Shown piece after piece: positions 1 through 40,521 of a stretch of DNA of 64,000 nucleotides. The stretch lies in the NCBI RefSeq assembly GCF_945957465.1, contig NZ_CAMFLC010000004.1, positions 62,001-126,000 of the forward strand. Direction: 5' to 3'. Origin of the DNA: an uncultured Leifsonia sp. Lineage in GTDB: Bacteria > Actinomycetota > Actinomycetes > Actinomycetales > Microbacteriaceae. Numbering within the stretch: the first letter of the stretch is position 1; each line of letters begins with the position of its first letter. The notes beneath the pieces are model-generated. The model was not told where the DNA came from and did not search any database. It saw nothing but the letters and a program-made list of their open reading frames with translations. The translations under genes were made by a program, and so were the position numbers.

Positions 1-957
<957 letters not shown>

Positions 958-9524: not shown

Positions 9525-10450
9525 CTATGGGGAGCTTTGTCCGGCAGGTGCCGGATTGGCTGATTCCAGGTCAGCGTAGTACGCGGTTTCGACCTCGAGC
9601 GGGGTGCGCAGGTCGAGTTCGCCGTGAAGGCGCTGATTGTTCCACCACCACACCCACTCGAGTGTTGCGAGCTCGACCTGCTCGACGGTTCGCCAGGGGC
9701 CTTGCTGGCGGATCAGCTCGGTCTTGTAGAGGTTGTTGACCGCCTCTGCCATCGCGTTGTCAAACGAGTCGCCGACGGTTCCTGTGGAGGGCACCGCGCC
9801 GAGTTCGACGATGCGGTCGGTGTAGACCATCGCCATGTAGTTCGAGCCGTGATCGGAGTGATGGGTCAGCCCGGCCAGGTCTCCGCCCGCGTCCCAGGCG
9901 GCCATGTCCAGCGCTTGCAACGGCAGGATCTCCGCTTTGAGGGTCGCGGCGACGTTCCAGCCCACGATCCGGCGCGAGAAAACGTCAGTGACGAAGGCGA
10001 CGTAGGCGAACCCGGACCAGGTTGCGACATAGGTGATGTCGCAGACCCAGAGCCGCCTGGGGCGTCGGCGCGGAAGCGCCGCTTCACGAGGTCCGCCGGC
10101 AACGACAGGGCCTTGTCGGTCTTCGTGGTGAACACCCGTTTGGACTTCTTCACCCCGCGGACCCCGGCCAGACGCATCAGCCGTTCGGTCTGGTCCCGGC
10201 CGATCTCCCAACCCTGCCGGCGCATCAGGGCGTGCATCTTCCGGCGCCCATAGACGCCGTAGTTCTCGGCATGCAGCCGGGCGACCTCCGGCACCAGCAG
10301 GTCATCACGCAGCTGTCTGGCCGACGGCACCCGACCCACCGCGGCGCGATAACCGCGCGAGGTGAGGAACCCCTGGACCGCCGGTCGGAGGACCCGGCAG
10401 ATGAGCTCGACCCCGAAACGATCCCGGTGCAGGTCAATGAACCGGGTCAT
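9525..10450 (-). pseudogene. IS3 transposase orfB (DDE integrase), frameshifted
   Basis: Catalytic subunit of the IS3 transposase. The first part (from ATG 10450, near MTRFIDLHRDRFG) encodes the HTH_21-type region with ENYGVYGRRKMHALMRRQG. The second part, in another frame, encodes the rve core with DDE residues: Asp in WVCDITYV, Asp in HHSDHGSNYM and Glu in NAMAEAVNNLYK, with Lys seven residues later. The frames meet at a run of four G (10059-10062, plus strand): adding one base would join them into a 308-codon protein, the normal orfB length. This is not the usual site of programmed IS3 frameshifting, which is between orfA and orfB. A sequencing error in a homopolymer is the alternative. 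Confidence 0.88.
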
Positions 10451-10455
10451 CTCGG

Positions 10456-10761
10456 TCAGGGGCGGTCGAGCTCCTTCGCGAAAAACACGCTCGCAGCCTT
10501 GAGGATCTCGTTCGCCTTCCGCAGCTCGGCGTTCTCCTTCTGCAGCCGCTTGATCTCCGCGGCGGCATCGGTGGTGACCCCGGGCTTGACGCCCGCGTCG
10601 ACCTCGTAGCGGCGCTGCCACAGCCTCAGCGTTTCGGGGCTCATCCCGAGCAGTCCGGCGACGTGCCTGATAGCGCTCATCATCGTCGGGTGCTCCGGCC
10701 GTGCCTCCGCGAGCATCCGCAGCGCCCGCTCACGCATCTCCGGCGAATAGGTCCTGTTCAT
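10456..10761 (-). CDS. IS3 transposase orfA (HTH protein)
   Basis: DNA-binding subunit of the IS3 element, 101 residues. The HTH_Tnp_1 region covers about 1-55 (MNRTYSPEMRERALRML, then GLLGMSPETLRLWQRR), followed by a leucine-zipper-like coiled coil (about 66-95, IKRLQKENAELRKANEILK) that normally drives dimerisation, and ends at the typical ASVFFAKELDRP. It overlaps orfB in a different phase, the usual arrangement for an OrfAB fusion by -1 frameshifting; a T-run lies in the overlap (near 10482), but I cannot assign the slippery site with certainty. The gene looks intact. Confidence 0.92.
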   Translation of the reverse strand: MNRTYSPEMRERALRMLAEARPEHPTMMSAIRHVAGLLGMSPETLRLWQRRYEVDAGVKPGVTTDAAAEIKRLQKENAELRKANEILKAASVFFAKELDRP

Positions 10762-13777: not shown

Positions 13778-14087
13778 GACCGCTCCGTCCTCATCGACAG
13801 TGGCCTCACGGTCGTGGGTCTCGGCAGCCACGTTACGGATGGCCTCAGCGTCAGCCCGGCCGGGTCCTTATCAGCGATCACTCCACGACCACGCCGCGCC
13901 CGGTGACAACACACAAAGGATCATCCACCGACAGGGCAAATACGTCATGCCGGACGCGACAGGCCACTACCCCTCAGAGCCTGCCCCAAGGAGCATCAAC
14001 AACGTAACGGGCAAAGTGTGGGCAAATCCCGAAATCGCCGCTTCCGAATCTGCCGCCGATGGGCTCAGATCCCTTTGATTTACTGGG
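13778..14087. other. Degraded non-coding sequence between integrase remnant and tRNA-Lys
   Basis: About 310 bases with no supportable gene. It is probably the remains of an IS end and of the integrase 3' flank. No second copy of the tRNA 3' end, which would mark an att site, is visible here or on the left side of the island. Confidence 0.45.
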
Positions 14088-14160
14088 TGGGCCCCGTGGG
14101 GCTCGAACCCACGACCCGCGGATTAAAAGTCCGATGCTCTACCGACTGAGCTAGAGGCCC
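14088..14160 (-). tRNA. tRNA-Lys (anticodon TTT)
   Basis: 73-base cloverleaf on the minus strand. Acceptor GGGCCTC pairs with GGGGCCC, the D-arm has AGCTCAGTCGGTAGAGC, the anticodon loop is CTTTTAA (anticodon TTT) and the T-arm reads GTGGG-TTCGAGC-CCCAC. Discriminator A; CCA is not encoded. The 3' end faces the integrase remnant and island, so it is the likely integration site. Confidence 0.97.
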
Positions 14161-14217
14161 TCGCCCTCTAATCTAGCGTGGATTCCGCACCTCCCTGTGC
14201 CGGGGCAGAATGGTGGG

Positions 14218-14847
14218 ATGTCCGATCGCTTTCACAAGCCGACCCTGTTCCCCGGGGGGATGTTCGAGGCATTCCTCGGTGGGGACGATCCGGCGCAGAT
14301 CAGCAGGGTCGCCCACGAGACGGCACAGGCGCTTCTCGCGCGTGTGCGGGAGGATCCCGACCCGGCCATCGTCGATCGGCTGGTCGCGTACACCGACGAG
14401 CACGGGATCGACGCGATCGCCGAGCTGTGGTCGCGGTCCACTGCAAAGAGCCTTCCCGGTGCGCTCTGGCGCATCTACCTGCTGCGGTTGCTCATCCGGC
14501 AGGACTCCGCGGGCACTGCGCTGTTCTACCAGCGCGGCACCGAAGTGATCGTGTCCATCGACCCGGTGGTCGCCGGGACGCCGACGCCGGCCGGGCCGGG
14601 GGAGGTGACCGAGCTCGCCGACCGGATCCTGCGCGGTGTGTTCGAGGGCGACTTCGCCGTCGCGCTCGACCGGGCCGCCGCGTTCTGCCGGGTGACGGCG
14701 GCCGGCTGCCTGTCCGTGGCCGACGACCGCGACCCGCTCGACCCGGAGCGCGCGAGCGAGCTCACCACACGGGCGCTGCGCTTCACGCGCACAGCGGAGG
14801 AACTGACCGCCTGTGCCCGGCTCTGGCGCAGCGACTCGCTCGACTGA
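14218..14847 (+). CDS. Conserved hypothetical protein (actinobacterial)
   Basis: Soluble protein of 209 residues, mostly helical by composition, with no signal peptide or membrane segment. The first half (about 35-105) is a helical repeat-like region (HETAQALLARVRED, VDRLVAYTDEHGIDAIAELW, SLPGALWRIYLLRLLIRQD); the second half (about 135-205) again helical with EVTELADRILRGVFEGDFAVALDRAAAFCRVTAAG. I do not recognise a named domain; the length and composition fit a conserved Microbacteriaceae protein of unknown role. ATG 14218 is chosen; CAGAAT at 14206-14211 lies six bases upstream and GGTGGG could also act as a ribosome site. It lies between tRNA-Lys and the sigK leader. Confidence 0.75.
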   Translation: MSDRFHKPTLFPGGMFEAFLGGDDPAQISRVAHETAQALLARVREDPDPAIVDRLVAYTDEHGIDAIAELWSRSTAKSLPGALWRIYLLRLLIRQDSAGTALFYQRGTEVIVSIDPVVAGTPTPAGPGEVTELADRILRGVFEGDFAVALDRAAAFCRVTAAGCLSVADDRDPLDPERASELTTRALRFTRTAEELTACARLWRSDSLD

Positions 14848-14949
14848 GCCCGCAGGGGCCACCGGCGAGGCGGCGTATTCCGGTTCTGCGTTCTCGGGCC
14901 GCGAACGCCACGCCGTGGACCTCGCCCGCGCCTCCTGTACTATGGACGA

Positions 14950-15030
14950 AGCCGGACCGCAGTAACCCCGGGCTCCAATACTTGCCGCTTCGAGCGGCCT
15001 CGCGCCGAGAGGCGTTTCTGCGGTCCGGCT
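14950..15030 (+). ncRNA. Structured leader RNA or small RNA upstream of sigK
   Basis: A 13-bp perfect stem closes the element: AGCCGGACCGCAG (14950-14962) with CTGCGGTCCGGCT (15018-15030). Inside are two hairpins, GCCGC-TTCGA-GCGGC (14984-14998) and GCGCC-GAGA-GGCGT with a GNRA tetraloop (15002-15015), plus about 21 unpaired bases. CCGGGCTC in that strand (14968-14975) is perfectly complementary to GAGCCCGG at 15050-15057, allowing a pseudoknot. A TACTAT -10 hexamer at 14938-14943 puts the transcript start at the foot of the stem. I do not recognise it as a known RNA family. Confidence 0.6.
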
Positions 15031-15072
15031 CTTTCGTACGTGGAGGGCCGAGCCCGGCGCGACGGAGGACTA

Positions 15073-15088
15073 CTGTCGGTGACGGCAG
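15073..15088 (+). promoter_or_regulatory. GNRA-capped hairpin in the sigK leader
   Basis: CTGTCG-GTGA-CGGCAG, a six-pair stem with a GTGA tetraloop, 40 bases before the sigK start. It follows the larger structure at 14950-15030 and precedes GGAGG at 15111-15115. Confidence 0.45.
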
Positions 15089-15128
15089 CAGCCCACGAGC
15101 ACCCGACCGAGGAGGCGCAGAGCACCGC

Positions 15129-15689
15129 GTGGACGACACCTCCGCCTCCGACCTCGACGAGCTCCTGTCGCGCACCGCTCACGGCGACCAGCGGGCGTTC
15201 TCCGACTTCTACGATCGTGTCGCGCCGCGCGTGCTGGGGCTGGTGCGCCGACTCCTGATCGACGCGGCGCAGTCCGAGGAGGTCGCTCAGGAGGTGTTCC
15301 TCGAGGCGTGGCAATCCGCTGCGCGGTTCGATCCGAATAAAGGTCGAGCGATCACCTGGATCCTCACGATGGCACACCGCAGGGCGGTCGACCGCATCCG
15401 GGCGTCCCAGTCCGCCCACGACCGCGACACGGCCGTCGGCATCCGTGACCTGCCGACCGACTTCGACGTGGTCGCGGAGACGGTCGAGGTTCGGGTGGAG
15501 CACGAGCGAGTGGAGGTGGCGATGGCGAGACTGAGCGAGGCGCAACGCCAAGCCATCGCCCTGGCGTACTACGGCGGCCTGAGTCAGAGCGAGGTCGCGG
15601 CCGAGCTCGGCATCCCCCTCGGCACAGCGAAAACCCGGTTGCGGGATGCGATGATACGGCTGCGAGACGAACTGGGGGTGACCCGATGA
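15129..15689 (+). CDS. sigK: ECF sigma factor SigK
   Basis: RNA polymerase sigma factor of 186 residues. Region 2 (about 22-88) contains FSDFYDRVAPRVLGLVRRLL, EVAQEVFLEAW and ITWILTMAHRRAVDRIR; region 4 (about 128-182) contains LSEAQRQAIALAYYGGLSQSEVAAELGIPLGTAKTRLRDAM, the pattern of actinobacterial SigK. It overlaps the RskA-like anti-sigma gene by four bases (ATGA), the usual sigK-rskA pair, so it is held inactive at the membrane and released on a redox or envelope signal. Start is GTG 15129 after GGAGG at 15111-15115, a long spacing of 13 bases. The highly structured leader upstream suggests post-transcriptional control, which is inference. Confidence 0.93.
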   Translation: MDDTSASDLDELLSRTAHGDQRAFSDFYDRVAPRVLGLVRRLLIDAAQSEEVAQEVFLEAWQSAARFDPNKGRAITWILTMAHRRAVDRIRASQSAHDRDTAVGIRDLPTDFDVVAETVEVRVEHERVEVAMARLSEAQRQAIALAYYGGLSQSEVAAELGIPLGTAKTRLRDAMIRLRDELGVTR

Positions 15690-16489
15690 CCGACGAGGAG
15701 CGAGGAATCGTCGACCCTGAACGCCTCGGTGCGCGCCTGGGGGCGCAGACCGAGCGGGAGGCGCGCGAGTTCGAGGACGTCGCCGCCCAGCTCGCCCTCT
15801 CCGCCGAGCCGGTGCAGCCTTCCGCCGAACTGAAGGCGGCCCTGTTCGCGAAGCTCGCCGAAACGCCGCAGCTGCCGGCGGAGAACCGCAGCGCCGCTCA
15901 GGAGGCCGTTCAGCCGGCCGCAGACCCGCCCGTGCAGGCCGTCGCCCTCCGCCCGGTTCCGTCCGAGTCGTCCTCCGAGGCCGCGCCGCCGCAGCCGACG
16001 CCGGCTGAGGAGCGCGCACGCCGCCGGTGGTTCCAGCGGCCCGGTGCGATCCTCGCGGCTGCTGCCGCCGGCGTCATCCTCTTCGTCGCCGGCGCGTTCG
16101 CCGGCGTCAGCCTGTCCAGTACGAACTCCTACCAGCAGCAGCAGGCCGCGGCCCTGGCGAGCATCAACGCGGCTCCGGACGTCCAGCGCGCCACCTCCCC
16201 CGTCGCCGGCGGCGGCACCGCCACCCTGGTGTGGTCGGCGCAGCTGGGCCGGTCCGCTCTGATCGCCACCGACCTCCCGGAGCTCGCAGGAGGCAAGACC
16301 TATGAGCTCTGGTACATCCGCGACGGCGCCGCCACGCCGGCCGGGACGATGACCGCGACCGGTGCCCCAGCCACCTGGCGGGTGCTCGCCGGCGAGATGA
16401 CCGCAGGCGACACGGTCGGCGTGACCGTCGAACCGAGTGGAGGCTCGAAGCAGCCCACCACGAAACCGATCGTCGCGATCACCTCCTGA
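15686..16489 (+). CDS. rskA: Anti-sigma-K factor RskA
   Basis: Membrane-bound inhibitor of SigK, 267 residues. The cytoplasmic N-terminus (about 1-60) carries the sigma-binding helices with LGAQTEREAREFEDVAAQLAL, then an Ala/Pro/Glu-rich linker (about 62-112), a single membrane helix (about 119-143, GAILAAAAAGVILFVAGAFAG) and an extracytoplasmic RskA domain (about 160-267) with LATDLPELAGGKTYELWYIRDG-like sequence. Proteolysis outside and within the membrane would release SigK. It overlaps sigK by four bases. No zinc-binding HxxxCxxC motif is seen in the N-terminus, in keeping with RskA rather than ZAS-type factors. A strong bidirectional terminator follows. Confidence 0.92.
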   Translation: MTDEERGIVDPERLGARLGAQTEREAREFEDVAAQLALSAEPVQPSAELKAALFAKLAETPQLPAENRSAAQEAVQPAADPPVQAVALRPVPSESSSEAAPPQPTPAEERARRRWFQRPGAILAAAAAGVILFVAGAFAGVSLSSTNSYQQQQAAALASINAAPDVQRATSPVAGGGTATLVWSAQLGRSALIATDLPELAGGKTYELWYIRDGAATPAGTMTATGAPATWRVLAGEMTAGDTVGVTVEPSGGSKQPTTKPIVAITS

Positions 16490-16515
16490 CGCAATCGCGG
16501 TCGGGGAGGCCGCAG

Positions 16516-16557
16516 ACGACGAGAGGCCCACCGGACATCCCGTGGGCCTCTCGTCGT
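16516..16557. terminator. Bidirectional terminator between rskA and pstB
   Basis: Perfect 16-bp stem ACGACGAGAGGCCCAC / GTGGGCCTCTCGTCGT with a ten-base loop between convergent genes. Confidence 0.85.
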
Positions 16558-16570
16558 GCGGGGCGGTCGA

Positions 16571-17350
16571 TCAACCGAAACGGCCGGACACGTAGTCCTC
16601 GGTGGCCTGCACGGTCGGGTTCGAGAAGATCATGTTGGTGTCGTTGTACTCGATGAGCTTGCCCGGCTTGCCGGTGCCGGCGATGTTGAAGAACGCCGTG
16701 CGGTCCGAGACGCGCGAAGCCTGCTGCATGTTGTGCGTGACGATGACGATGGTGTACTCGTTCTTGAGTTCCTCGATGAGGTCCTCGATCGCGAGCGTGG
16801 AGATCGGGTCGAGCGCCGAGCAGGGCTCGTCCATCAGCAGCACATCAGGCGAGACGGCGATCGCCCGCGCGATGCACAGACGCTGCTGCTGGCCGCCCGA
16901 GAGCCCGGAACCGGGGAGGTTGAGGCGGTCCTTCACCTCGTTCCAGAGGTTGGCGCCCTGCAGCGACTTCTCGACGAGCTCGTCGCTCTCGCTCTTCGAC
17001 ATGCGTCGGTTGTTGAGCCTGACTCCGGCGAGCACGTTGTCGCGGATGCTCATCGTGGGGAACGGGTTGGGCCGCTGGAACACCATTCCCACCTGGCGAC
17101 GCACCAGAACGGGGTCGACGCCGGCGCCGTAGAGGTTGTTGCCGTCGATCAGCACTTCGCCCTCCACGTACGCGCCGGGGATCACCTCGTGCATGCGGTT
17201 GAGGGTGCGGAGGAAGGTGGACTTGCCACAGCCGGACGGCCCGATGAACGCCGTCACACTGCGGGGCTCGATCGTGAGCGACACGCCCTCGACGGCACGG
17301 AACTTGCCGTAGTAGACGTTCAGGTCGTTGACTTCGATGCGCTTGGACAC
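16571..17350 (-). CDS. pstB: Phosphate ABC transporter ATPase PstB
   Basis: Cytoplasmic ATPase that powers high-affinity phosphate import through PstA/PstC. The 259-residue protein has Walker [10 protein letters not shown] (37-45), Q-loop in [21 protein letters not shown], the signature [14 protein letters not shown] (about 149-162), Walker [14 protein letters not shown] and the switch His in [10 protein letters not shown], all as in PstB. Start is GTG 17350. It is the last gene of pstS-pstC-pstA-pstB, 43 bases after pstA, and reads toward the shared terminator. PstB also takes part in signalling to PhoU and the SenX3 kinase. Confidence 0.97.
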
Positions 17351-40193: not shown

Positions 40194-40521
40194 TTTTCTT
40201 TTGTCTCCTTCACCGGCAGGTACGTGCCGGACGATCCGTTGTGAATGGAATAGACGTGGCGTCGACGTCCAGGGGCGTCGATGCCACGACCCCCATAGTA
40301 AGGCATCGGACGGGGTGGGATTACCACCTGGTTCCTCACCCTCGGCGTCCCGCACTCGGGGGACACGTGGAGGCGGTGTTCGGATCTCGAACGGCGTATC
40401 TCTGGTCTATTCCCAGACTGCCGGAATACGATCGTCCGGTTGCGTCTAGCTCACGCACGTCCCGCTGCGCGTCCCCCCGCGCGCAGCGCCGCCTACCCCG
40501 AGAGCCGATCCCCCTGAAGAT
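40194..40521. promoter_or_regulatory. Divergent promoter region msiK / DsbA-like gene
   Basis: About 330 bases with no gene. On the minus strand TACTAT (40300-40295) is a possible -10 for msiK with a long leader. On the plus strand I can name no certain promoter for the DsbA-like gene. There are several short GC-rich inverted repeats, none convincing as an operator. Confidence 0.4.

Follow-up and report, generated by a model that had tools for sequence, protein, structure and literature searches.

Comparative evidence for a small structured RNA gene conserved from Leifsonia to the Mycobacteriaceae

Results

A compact structured locus between a 209-aa gene and sigK

The window analysed here is a 64,000-nucleotide stretch of DNA from an uncultured Leifsonia sp. 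of the family Microbacteriaceae. Within it, the interval between the gene for a 209-aa protein and a sigK-type sigma-factor gene contains a candidate promoter, an elaborate inverted repeat and a short T/C-rich tail, all read on the + strand. The features of the locus are as follows.

14218 to 14847, + strand: gene for a 209-aa protein without a Pfam or NCBIfam match, the upstream neighbour
14938 to 14943, + strand: -10 hexamer TACTAT of a candidate sigma-70-type promoter; 69 of 72 loci of the family have a TAnnnT before the stem
14950 to 15038, + strand: small RNA gene, with predicted 5' end and predicted 3' tail; conserved, folding z-score -3.45
14951 to 14962, + strand: 5' strand of the outer stem, with 10 of 12 pairs doubly changed in alignment A3; A14950 adds a 13th pair
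14963 to 14983, + strand: C-rich strand UAACCCCGGGCUCCAAUACUU between the stem and the first hairpin; CCCCGG in 169 of 171 distinct cores (selected by pattern, see below)
14984 to 14998, + strand: inner hairpin GCCGCUUCGAGCGGC, whose second pair covaries
15003 to 15014, + strand: inner hairpin CGCC-GAGA-GGCG with a GNRA loop; GNRA in 167 of the same 171 pattern-selected cores
15018 to 15029, + strand: 3' strand of the outer stem, covarying as the 5' strand does; U15030 pairs with A14950
15030 to 15038, + strand: T/C-rich tail that may act with the outer stem as a terminator; T fraction of 0.43 across the family
15129 to 15689, + strand: sigK-type ECF sigma factor (Sigma70_r2 and Sigma70_r4), a neighbour in the family only
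15686 to 16489, + strand: anti-sigma-K factor of the RskA type (RskA_C)

A first-pass annotation, made from the letters of the window, had described a TACTAT hexamer at promoter distance from a 13-bp perfect stem that encloses two hairpins, one of them with a GNRA loop. Each of these elements is present: the hexamer is spaced for a predicted start near 14950, and A14950–G14962 pairs with C15018–U15030 over 13 bp, of which 12 bp belong to the conserved part. The RNA core (14950–15030, + strand) thereby consists of a 12–13-bp outer stem, a CCCCGGGYYCC strand and the hairpins GYCGC-UNCGA-GCGRC and CGCC-GNRA-GGCG. The 89 nt from 14950 to 15038 fold with -45.0 kcal/mol (z = -3.45), a value that none of 200 dinucleotide shuffles equals, whereas folding of a longer stretch (184 nt) gives an ordinary value (z = -1.17). 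Conservation outweighs folding energy as the stronger argument that the structure exceeds chance. A coding sequence at this position is disfavoured by one-base insertions (TT/TTT near 15015–15017) that distinguish close relatives.

Other details of the original description hold in part. The roughly 21 bases said to be unpaired inside the stem do exist, at 14963–14983, but some of the C-rich strand pairs with the second inner hairpin when the window's sequence is folded by itself, and in the consensus fold two G-C pairs lie within the strand, so that calling it unpaired is a reading rather than a result. Likewise, CCGGGCTC at 14968–14975 is indeed complementary to GAGCCCGG at 15050–15057, but the pseudoknot proposed from this match is rejected: within 59 nt 3' of the stem, GAGCCCGG is found at the window's own locus and at no other of the 28 genus loci or the 194 distinct loci. 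An additional hairpin, CTGTCGGTGACGGCAG at 15073–15088, is present as described but lies outside the conserved core. At 15071–15088, TACTGT, itself of the form TAnnnT, overlaps this hairpin (CTGTCG...CGGCAG); within 59 nt past the stem, 10 of 28 loci of the genus have TACTGT, which may belong to a separate sigK promoter.

Distribution across the class

The genome samples for genus, family, order, class and phylum overlap and include the window's own genome. By DNA search, the RNA is found in 28 of 28 genus genomes and in 276 of 299 family genomes, representing 82 of 85 genera. A covariance model built from 44 family sequences (R1) detects it in 293 of 297 order genomes (94 of 95 genera) and in 29 of 396 phylum genomes, all 29 of which are within the class. 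With a wider model built from 56 sequences (R2), 209 of 345 class genomes and 72 of 127 genera give matches, Mycobacteriaceae and probable Streptomyces among them; of 296 phylum genomes, R2 matches 22, of which 21 belong to the class; the one match from elsewhere is weak (28.9 bits). A pattern scan of named genomes returned 47 stretches, which belong to Mycobacterium or Mycolicibacterium with three exceptions: Nocardia carnea, a Rhodococcus MAG and a MAG labelled Rhodobiaceae. Because the pattern covers the RNA, these stretches were selected for similar hairpins; the promoters lie outside the pattern. The locus from the Rhodobiaceae-labelled MAG (L186), probably contamination, was counted among the Mycobacteriaceae. 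Group f22 is Mycobacteriaceae in the GTDB sense, because the Nocardia carnea locus (L152) agrees with L094, and that of M. fortunisiensis (L153) with L108, over the stretches compared. Groups f21 and f1 we take to be Streptomyces and Microbacteriaceae, respectively, probable assignments made partly from gene neighbours.

For the comparison of loci, 228 were assembled; four were dropped for want of a match to a loose core pattern (L030, L031, L111, itself an SRP hit, and L228) and L176 for its nearness to an end. The 223 loci that remain include 194 distinct ones (L229–L253 enter no count). The stretches examined extend about 1.5 kb to each side for most loci and less at contig ends, and the 47 pattern-scan loci are placed unevenly within their 8 kb; 'not adjacent' hence means not within the examined stretch.

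A single match is found in most of the genomes listed. Separate copies at more than one place are carried by G1147 and G1222 in f24 and by G1041 and G1054 in f115; G1054 has three (L215, L216 and L217), which have diverged from one another. Genomes of f15 give two to four matches each, and antisense echoes of the palindrome may be among these. Laxer filters were applied to 28 genomes that had given no match at first, and four of them then matched: two in g67 clearly, at about 56 bits, and two at 26.6–26.8 bits, near the threshold. The RNA was not found with these filters in g11 (5 of 5 genomes), g14 (4 of 4), g81 (3 of 3, 59–84% complete) or g117 (2 of 2), the genomes concerned measuring 0.7–1.7 Mb; it is retained in several genomes of 0.9–1.6 Mb. 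Within Mycobacterium (the genus of G984), 70 of 148 genomes were matched, at stricter filters. Given its absence from the re-tested small genomes and these mycobacterial counts, the RNA is probably not essential everywhere.

Covariation and the coding strand

Base pairs were counted on A3, a MAFFT alignment of 56 sequences built without reference to structure. Two other alignments were not used for this purpose: A5 (92 sequences), in which the Mycobacteriaceae stems are out of register, and A2, which contained antisense copies. In A3, 97.2% of 1216 cells are standard pairs, and double changes are seen in 11 of 22 pairs and 88 cells, as against means of 6.8 pairs and 21.3 cells after shuffling, with none of 500 shuffles as high. 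The covariation score is 0.293 versus 0.138, and once the partners are slid by 1–3 columns only 30–49% of cells pair. Most of the covariation resides in the outer stem, where 10 of 12 pairs have changed on both sides. One pair covaries in the hairpin 14984–14998, the second, which is C-G in 42, U-A in 13 and G-C in 1 of the 56 sequences. The pairs of the GNRA hairpin vary to G-U only, and the three stem pairs next to the junction are each broken in 5–13 sequences. Compensatory changes in the helices, as a structured RNA gene should display, are thus found across families on A3. An alignment restricted to the family (44 sequences) has double changes in 1 of 22 pairs, a figure matched by 441 of 500 shuffles; its 10 double-change cells (4.8 on shuffling) and its 99.9% of paired cells are both above all shuffles. 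Covariation, which the first-pass annotation had named as a check, is therefore clear across families and thin within the family alone.

The same annotation had allowed that the outer stem alone might be conserved, as in a plain terminator; the inner parts prove to be conserved at least as well as the stem. Among 171 distinct cores, extracted with a pattern that demands most hairpin letters and tolerates few substitutions so that the counts lean to conservation, CCCCGG is found in 169, a GNRA sequence in the third loop in 167 and UNCGA in the second loop in 157, and the second pair of the hairpin 14984–14998 is C-G in 106, U-A in 62, G-C in 1 and unpaired in 2.

The paired cells of A3 also reveal which strand is the RNA. 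G-T and T-G combinations occupy 81 cells, compared with 5 for A-C and C-A, and this asymmetry marks the + strand of the window as the RNA; an RNA on the opposite strand is rejected on account of the G-U wobbles. Antisense matches of the covariance models, at 24–40 bits, are taken as an echo of the palindrome. Together, covariation across families, the folding z-score and conservation bear out the initial suggestion of a structured RNA of the small-RNA type.

Neighbouring genes change from family to family

Downstream of the RNA, sigK and its anti-sigma gene are present in 26 of 27 distinct genus loci, and sigK is found on the same strand in 47 of 72 distinct family loci. Outside the family, none of 122 distinct loci has sigK downstream within the examined stretch, and even within the genus the interval between stem and sigK is unconserved. 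The 209-aa gene on the upstream side is a more constant companion of the RNA than the gene downstream. It precedes the RNA on the same strand in 57 of 72 family loci, 11 of 15 other loci of the order, 10 of 11 loci of f24, all 6 of f97, 5 of 8 of f107 and 2 of 6 other loci of the class, and in none of 76 loci from f22 (0/51), f21 (0/13), f115 (0/7) and f106 (0/5). A profile of the 209-aa protein gave matches in 6 of 35 tested genomes, one of them, in f115, away from the RNA copy examined, and gave none in 3 genomes of f21, 7 of f22 and those tested of g11, g14, g81 and g117; on these counts the protein is disfavoured as an obligatory partner. Its single-sequence fold is mostly helical and of low confidence (mean pLDDT 49.6), and was not used as evidence.

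At the mycobacterial loci, an HTH regulator (Pfam HTH_3) is suggested upstream. Translations suggest a carboxyltransferase downstream of the RNA and perhaps a WhiB-like gene between them, the latter guessed from an out-of-frame reading. In our reading of the translations from f21, the neighbours would be a helicase and a malic enzyme. Since the RNA persists beside different genes in different families, it is a gene of its own, with the independence from adjacent genes that is expected of a trans-acting sRNA. Comparison of sequences shows an RNA family with a defined structure, strand and range, and its independence from sigK.

Promoter motifs and transcript ends

In the family, 69 of 72 distinct loci have a TAnnnT hexamer 3–14 nt upstream of the stem, compared with a rate of 0.06 in shuffled letters, and in those 69 loci the end of the hexamer lies 4–7 nt from the start of the stem. 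(All shuffles for promoters and tails are plain letter shuffles.) A different signal prevails in the Mycobacteriaceae: the SigH/SigR-type motif GGAAY-N17..20-GTT ends at most 20 nt upstream of the stem in 48 of 51 distinct loci, and in 16 of 9700 letter-shuffled sequences. It is also present in 11 of 13 loci of f21, 5 of 7 of f115, 4 of 6 other loci of the class and 2 of 5 of f106, and further in 3 of 15 other loci of the order, 17 of 72 of the family and 1 of 11 of f24; it was found in none of 6 loci of f97 and none of 8 of f107, and the window itself has no such motif. In 41 of the 48 motif-bearing Mycobacteriaceae loci, the looser GGAAY...GTT motif ends 9 nt upstream of the stem. The M. tuberculosis SigH consensus, as quoted in PMC3489674 and taken here as GGAA[CT]A-N16-[CG]GTT, is matched in 41 of 51 Mycobacteriaceae loci and in 6 of 102000 shuffles. 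Two strict consensus forms occur in 4 of 72 and 7 of 72 family loci and in 0 of 13 loci of f21.

GGAAY...GTT, just upstream of the stem in nearly all Mycobacteriaceae loci, makes the RNA of that family a candidate member of the SigH/SigR regulon; the window's copy has a sigma-70-type -10 only, and SigH/SigR control is here proposed from motifs. Stress control in the Mycobacteriaceae and in part of some other lineages is accordingly a prediction, as are the start and the end of the transcript. Against a general stress promoter, the motif is absent from most loci of the window's family (55 of 72), of the rest of the order (12 of 15) and of f24 (10 of 11). The window's genome encodes a SigH/SigR orthologue above the curated cut-off; so do G037, G040, G118 and G121, four genomes that gave no match to the RNA, and the RNA and SigH/SigR are therefore not tied to each other.

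Past the stem, the first 9 nt have a T fraction of 0.43 in the family, compared with 0.14 at +30..58; in the other groups the fraction is 0.13–0.33. A simple scan for promoters and terminators, using its own rules over 14000–16600, returned no site, including none at the T/C-rich tail.

Two further observations concern the 5' flank. Upstream of the RNA promoter, at 14889–14914, an inverted repeat (CGTTC-N9-GAACG) is followed by CCACGCC, and similar letters recur in many genus loci; the repeat is possibly a regulator site. In f107 (L197–L201, L213, L223 and L224) and f97 (L190–L193, L210 and L211), inspection by eye suggests an extra short hairpin between the possible -10 and the stem, and the RNA of these two groups may be longer at its 5' end.

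Comparison with known RNAs

When the window was compared with the 4227 families of Rfam 15 at gathering score, nothing matched at the RNA locus; the matches elsewhere are two tRNAs, an msiK RNA (40199–40256, - strand, 66.5 bits) and an ALIL pseudoknot (10373–10489, - strand) that, at 51.4 bits with a cut-off of 50, may be due to chance. The loci of 13 relatives likewise gave no gathering-score match at the RNA. A permissive scan of 14840–15140 yielded two matches of 13–15 bits, and raising E up to 10 for the window and an f21 locus (L097) yielded matches of 13–18 bits only, all far under the cut-offs. The early judgement that the element matches no recognised family is thereby sustained for Rfam, in the window and in the loci of the 13 relatives. 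No description of the RNA was found in the literature covered, which includes passages of PMC8388888, PMC3765725, PMC2764107, PMC4046766, PMC4921905, PMC5472188, PMC2422843, PMC3489674, PMC8628891 and PMC2864571, with subscription papers and supplements outside its scope; the RNA may be listed unnamed in some RNA-seq table.

Three known groups of RNA invite comparison. Like 6C RNA, the present RNA is an actinobacterial small RNA with C-runs. According to PMC8388888, 6C has two stem-loops with six or more C in each, whereas here the C-rich strand belongs to a junction inside one long stem; with a single C-rich junction strand, no C-run in a hairpin loop and no Rfam match, the RNA lacks the 6C architecture. 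The bacterial small SRP RNA (RF00169, a 97-position model) is similarly a short RNA gene with one match in the window's genome, but this RF00169 match is on another contig (G000 C19, 63.1 bits) and none is in the window, so the RNA is not SRP RNA. Finally, scr2952 and scr3202 are given in PMC8388888 as conserved Streptomyces ncRNAs with Rfam entries. The present RNA differs from this series in that three f21 loci of about 3 kb each (L097, L098 and L110) have no Rfam match at gathering score; around the RNA in L097, E up to 10 adds two microRNA chance matches only, and the scr3202 model matches the window on the opposite strand only, at 14.8 bits with a cut-off of 52. The scr2952 gene might sit between neighbours similar to those of this RNA. 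On the sequences compared, we rate the RNA as a putative new, uncatalogued family of small structured RNA.

Discussion

The feature is almost certainly an RNA gene, and we consider it an even question whether the RNA works in trans by base pairing. Our working proposal, held with the same balance of belief and doubt, is an autonomous gene for a structured sRNA of about 85–90 nt that has its own promoter and acts in trans through its C-rich strand. Transcription would start where the outer stem begins, or close to it, from a sigma-70-type promoter in the window's family and from a SigH/SigR-type promoter, responsive to thiol-oxidative stress, in the Mycobacteriaceae and in part of several lineages. 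The outer stem would close the RNA, and in the window's family may double as a terminator. Thus closed, it would present the nearly invariant C-rich strand together with the two hairpins. CCCCGGGYYCC could then pair with G-rich stretches of mRNA, such as Shine-Dalgarno regions, without Hfq; M. tuberculosis 6C reportedly binds several mRNAs via C-rich loops and without chaperones. The hairpins would stabilize the RNA or bind a protein.

That last function touches a weakness of the base-pairing proposal: conservation of the hairpins equals that of the C-rich strand, which is more than a pure base-pairing sRNA would need. For this reason, a protein-binding role is a serious rival. It would then be a housekeeping or stress RNA that binds a protein, or a large machine such as RNA polymerase, the ribosome or a ribonuclease, with the C-rich strand and the loops as protein contacts, in the manner of 6S, Ms1 and SRP RNAs. 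Near universality in the order, a single match in most genomes, nearly fixed hairpin letters and loops (GNRA in 167 and UNCGA in 157 of the 171 cores, whose selection leans to conservation) and retention in several genomes of 0.9–1.6 Mb would all fit such a role. It accounts less readily for the absence of the RNA from the re-tested g11, g14, g81 and g117 genomes and for its detection in 70 of 148 Mycobacterium genomes. Nor is the 209-aa neighbour an obligatory partner, as it has no profile match in the 3 f21 and 7 f22 genomes tested; and the RNA is not SRP RNA, whose gene sits elsewhere in the genome. We regard protein binding as possible, though doubtful.

Two remaining explanations fare much worse. 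The first-pass annotation had considered a riboswitch-type leader of sigK, which would make the stem a cis-acting riboswitch or attenuator that regulates read-through into sigK within the family. The position of sigK in the genus and in much of the family, as well as the T-rich tail 3' of the stem, would suit a leader, but a leader should keep constant company with the gene that it regulates. Here sigK is downstream in 47 of 72 family loci and, within the examined stretch, at none of the 122 loci outside the family, where sequence and structure are kept; the tail in the family looks like a terminator, the interval to sigK drifts even within the genus, and TACTGT past the stem offers sigK a possible promoter of its own. 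We reject the leader, which we consider very improbable. A DNA element (a palindromic site for a protein or for replication), or simply an intrinsic terminator that serves the upstream gene, is hardly credible. An ORF ends about 100 bp before the long and perfect inverted repeat, which has a T-rich tail in the family and might suggest either; but the G-T wobbles are confined to one strand (81 versus 5), which would not be expected of a site in double-stranded DNA, conservation is high also in the inner parts that do not belong to a terminator, and the promoter motifs point into the element.

Returning to the autonomous small RNA gene, an RNA found in 293 of 297 order genomes, in many mycobacteria and in probable Streptomyces would be expected in RNA catalogues, yet neither the window nor the loci of the 13 relatives gave an Rfam match to it; the alignment and covariance model can be used for annotating further genomes. 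Mycobacteria and Streptomyces have no identifiable Hfq (PMC2764107), so an RNA with a conserved putative contact strand and a partly stress-type promoter would provide a handle on post-transcriptional regulation in these organisms. More speculatively, and at a confidence that we place short of an even chance, the RNA may be a class-wide regulatory or housekeeping RNA with a sealed stem, made under thiol-oxidative stress in mycobacteria and some relatives, and engage a conserved partner (the ribosome, RNA polymerase or a new RNA-binding protein) through the invariant CCCCGG and the two fixed hairpins. If true, such a class-wide, partner-engaging RNA would join 6C and Ms1 as another common class of RNA in actinobacteria.
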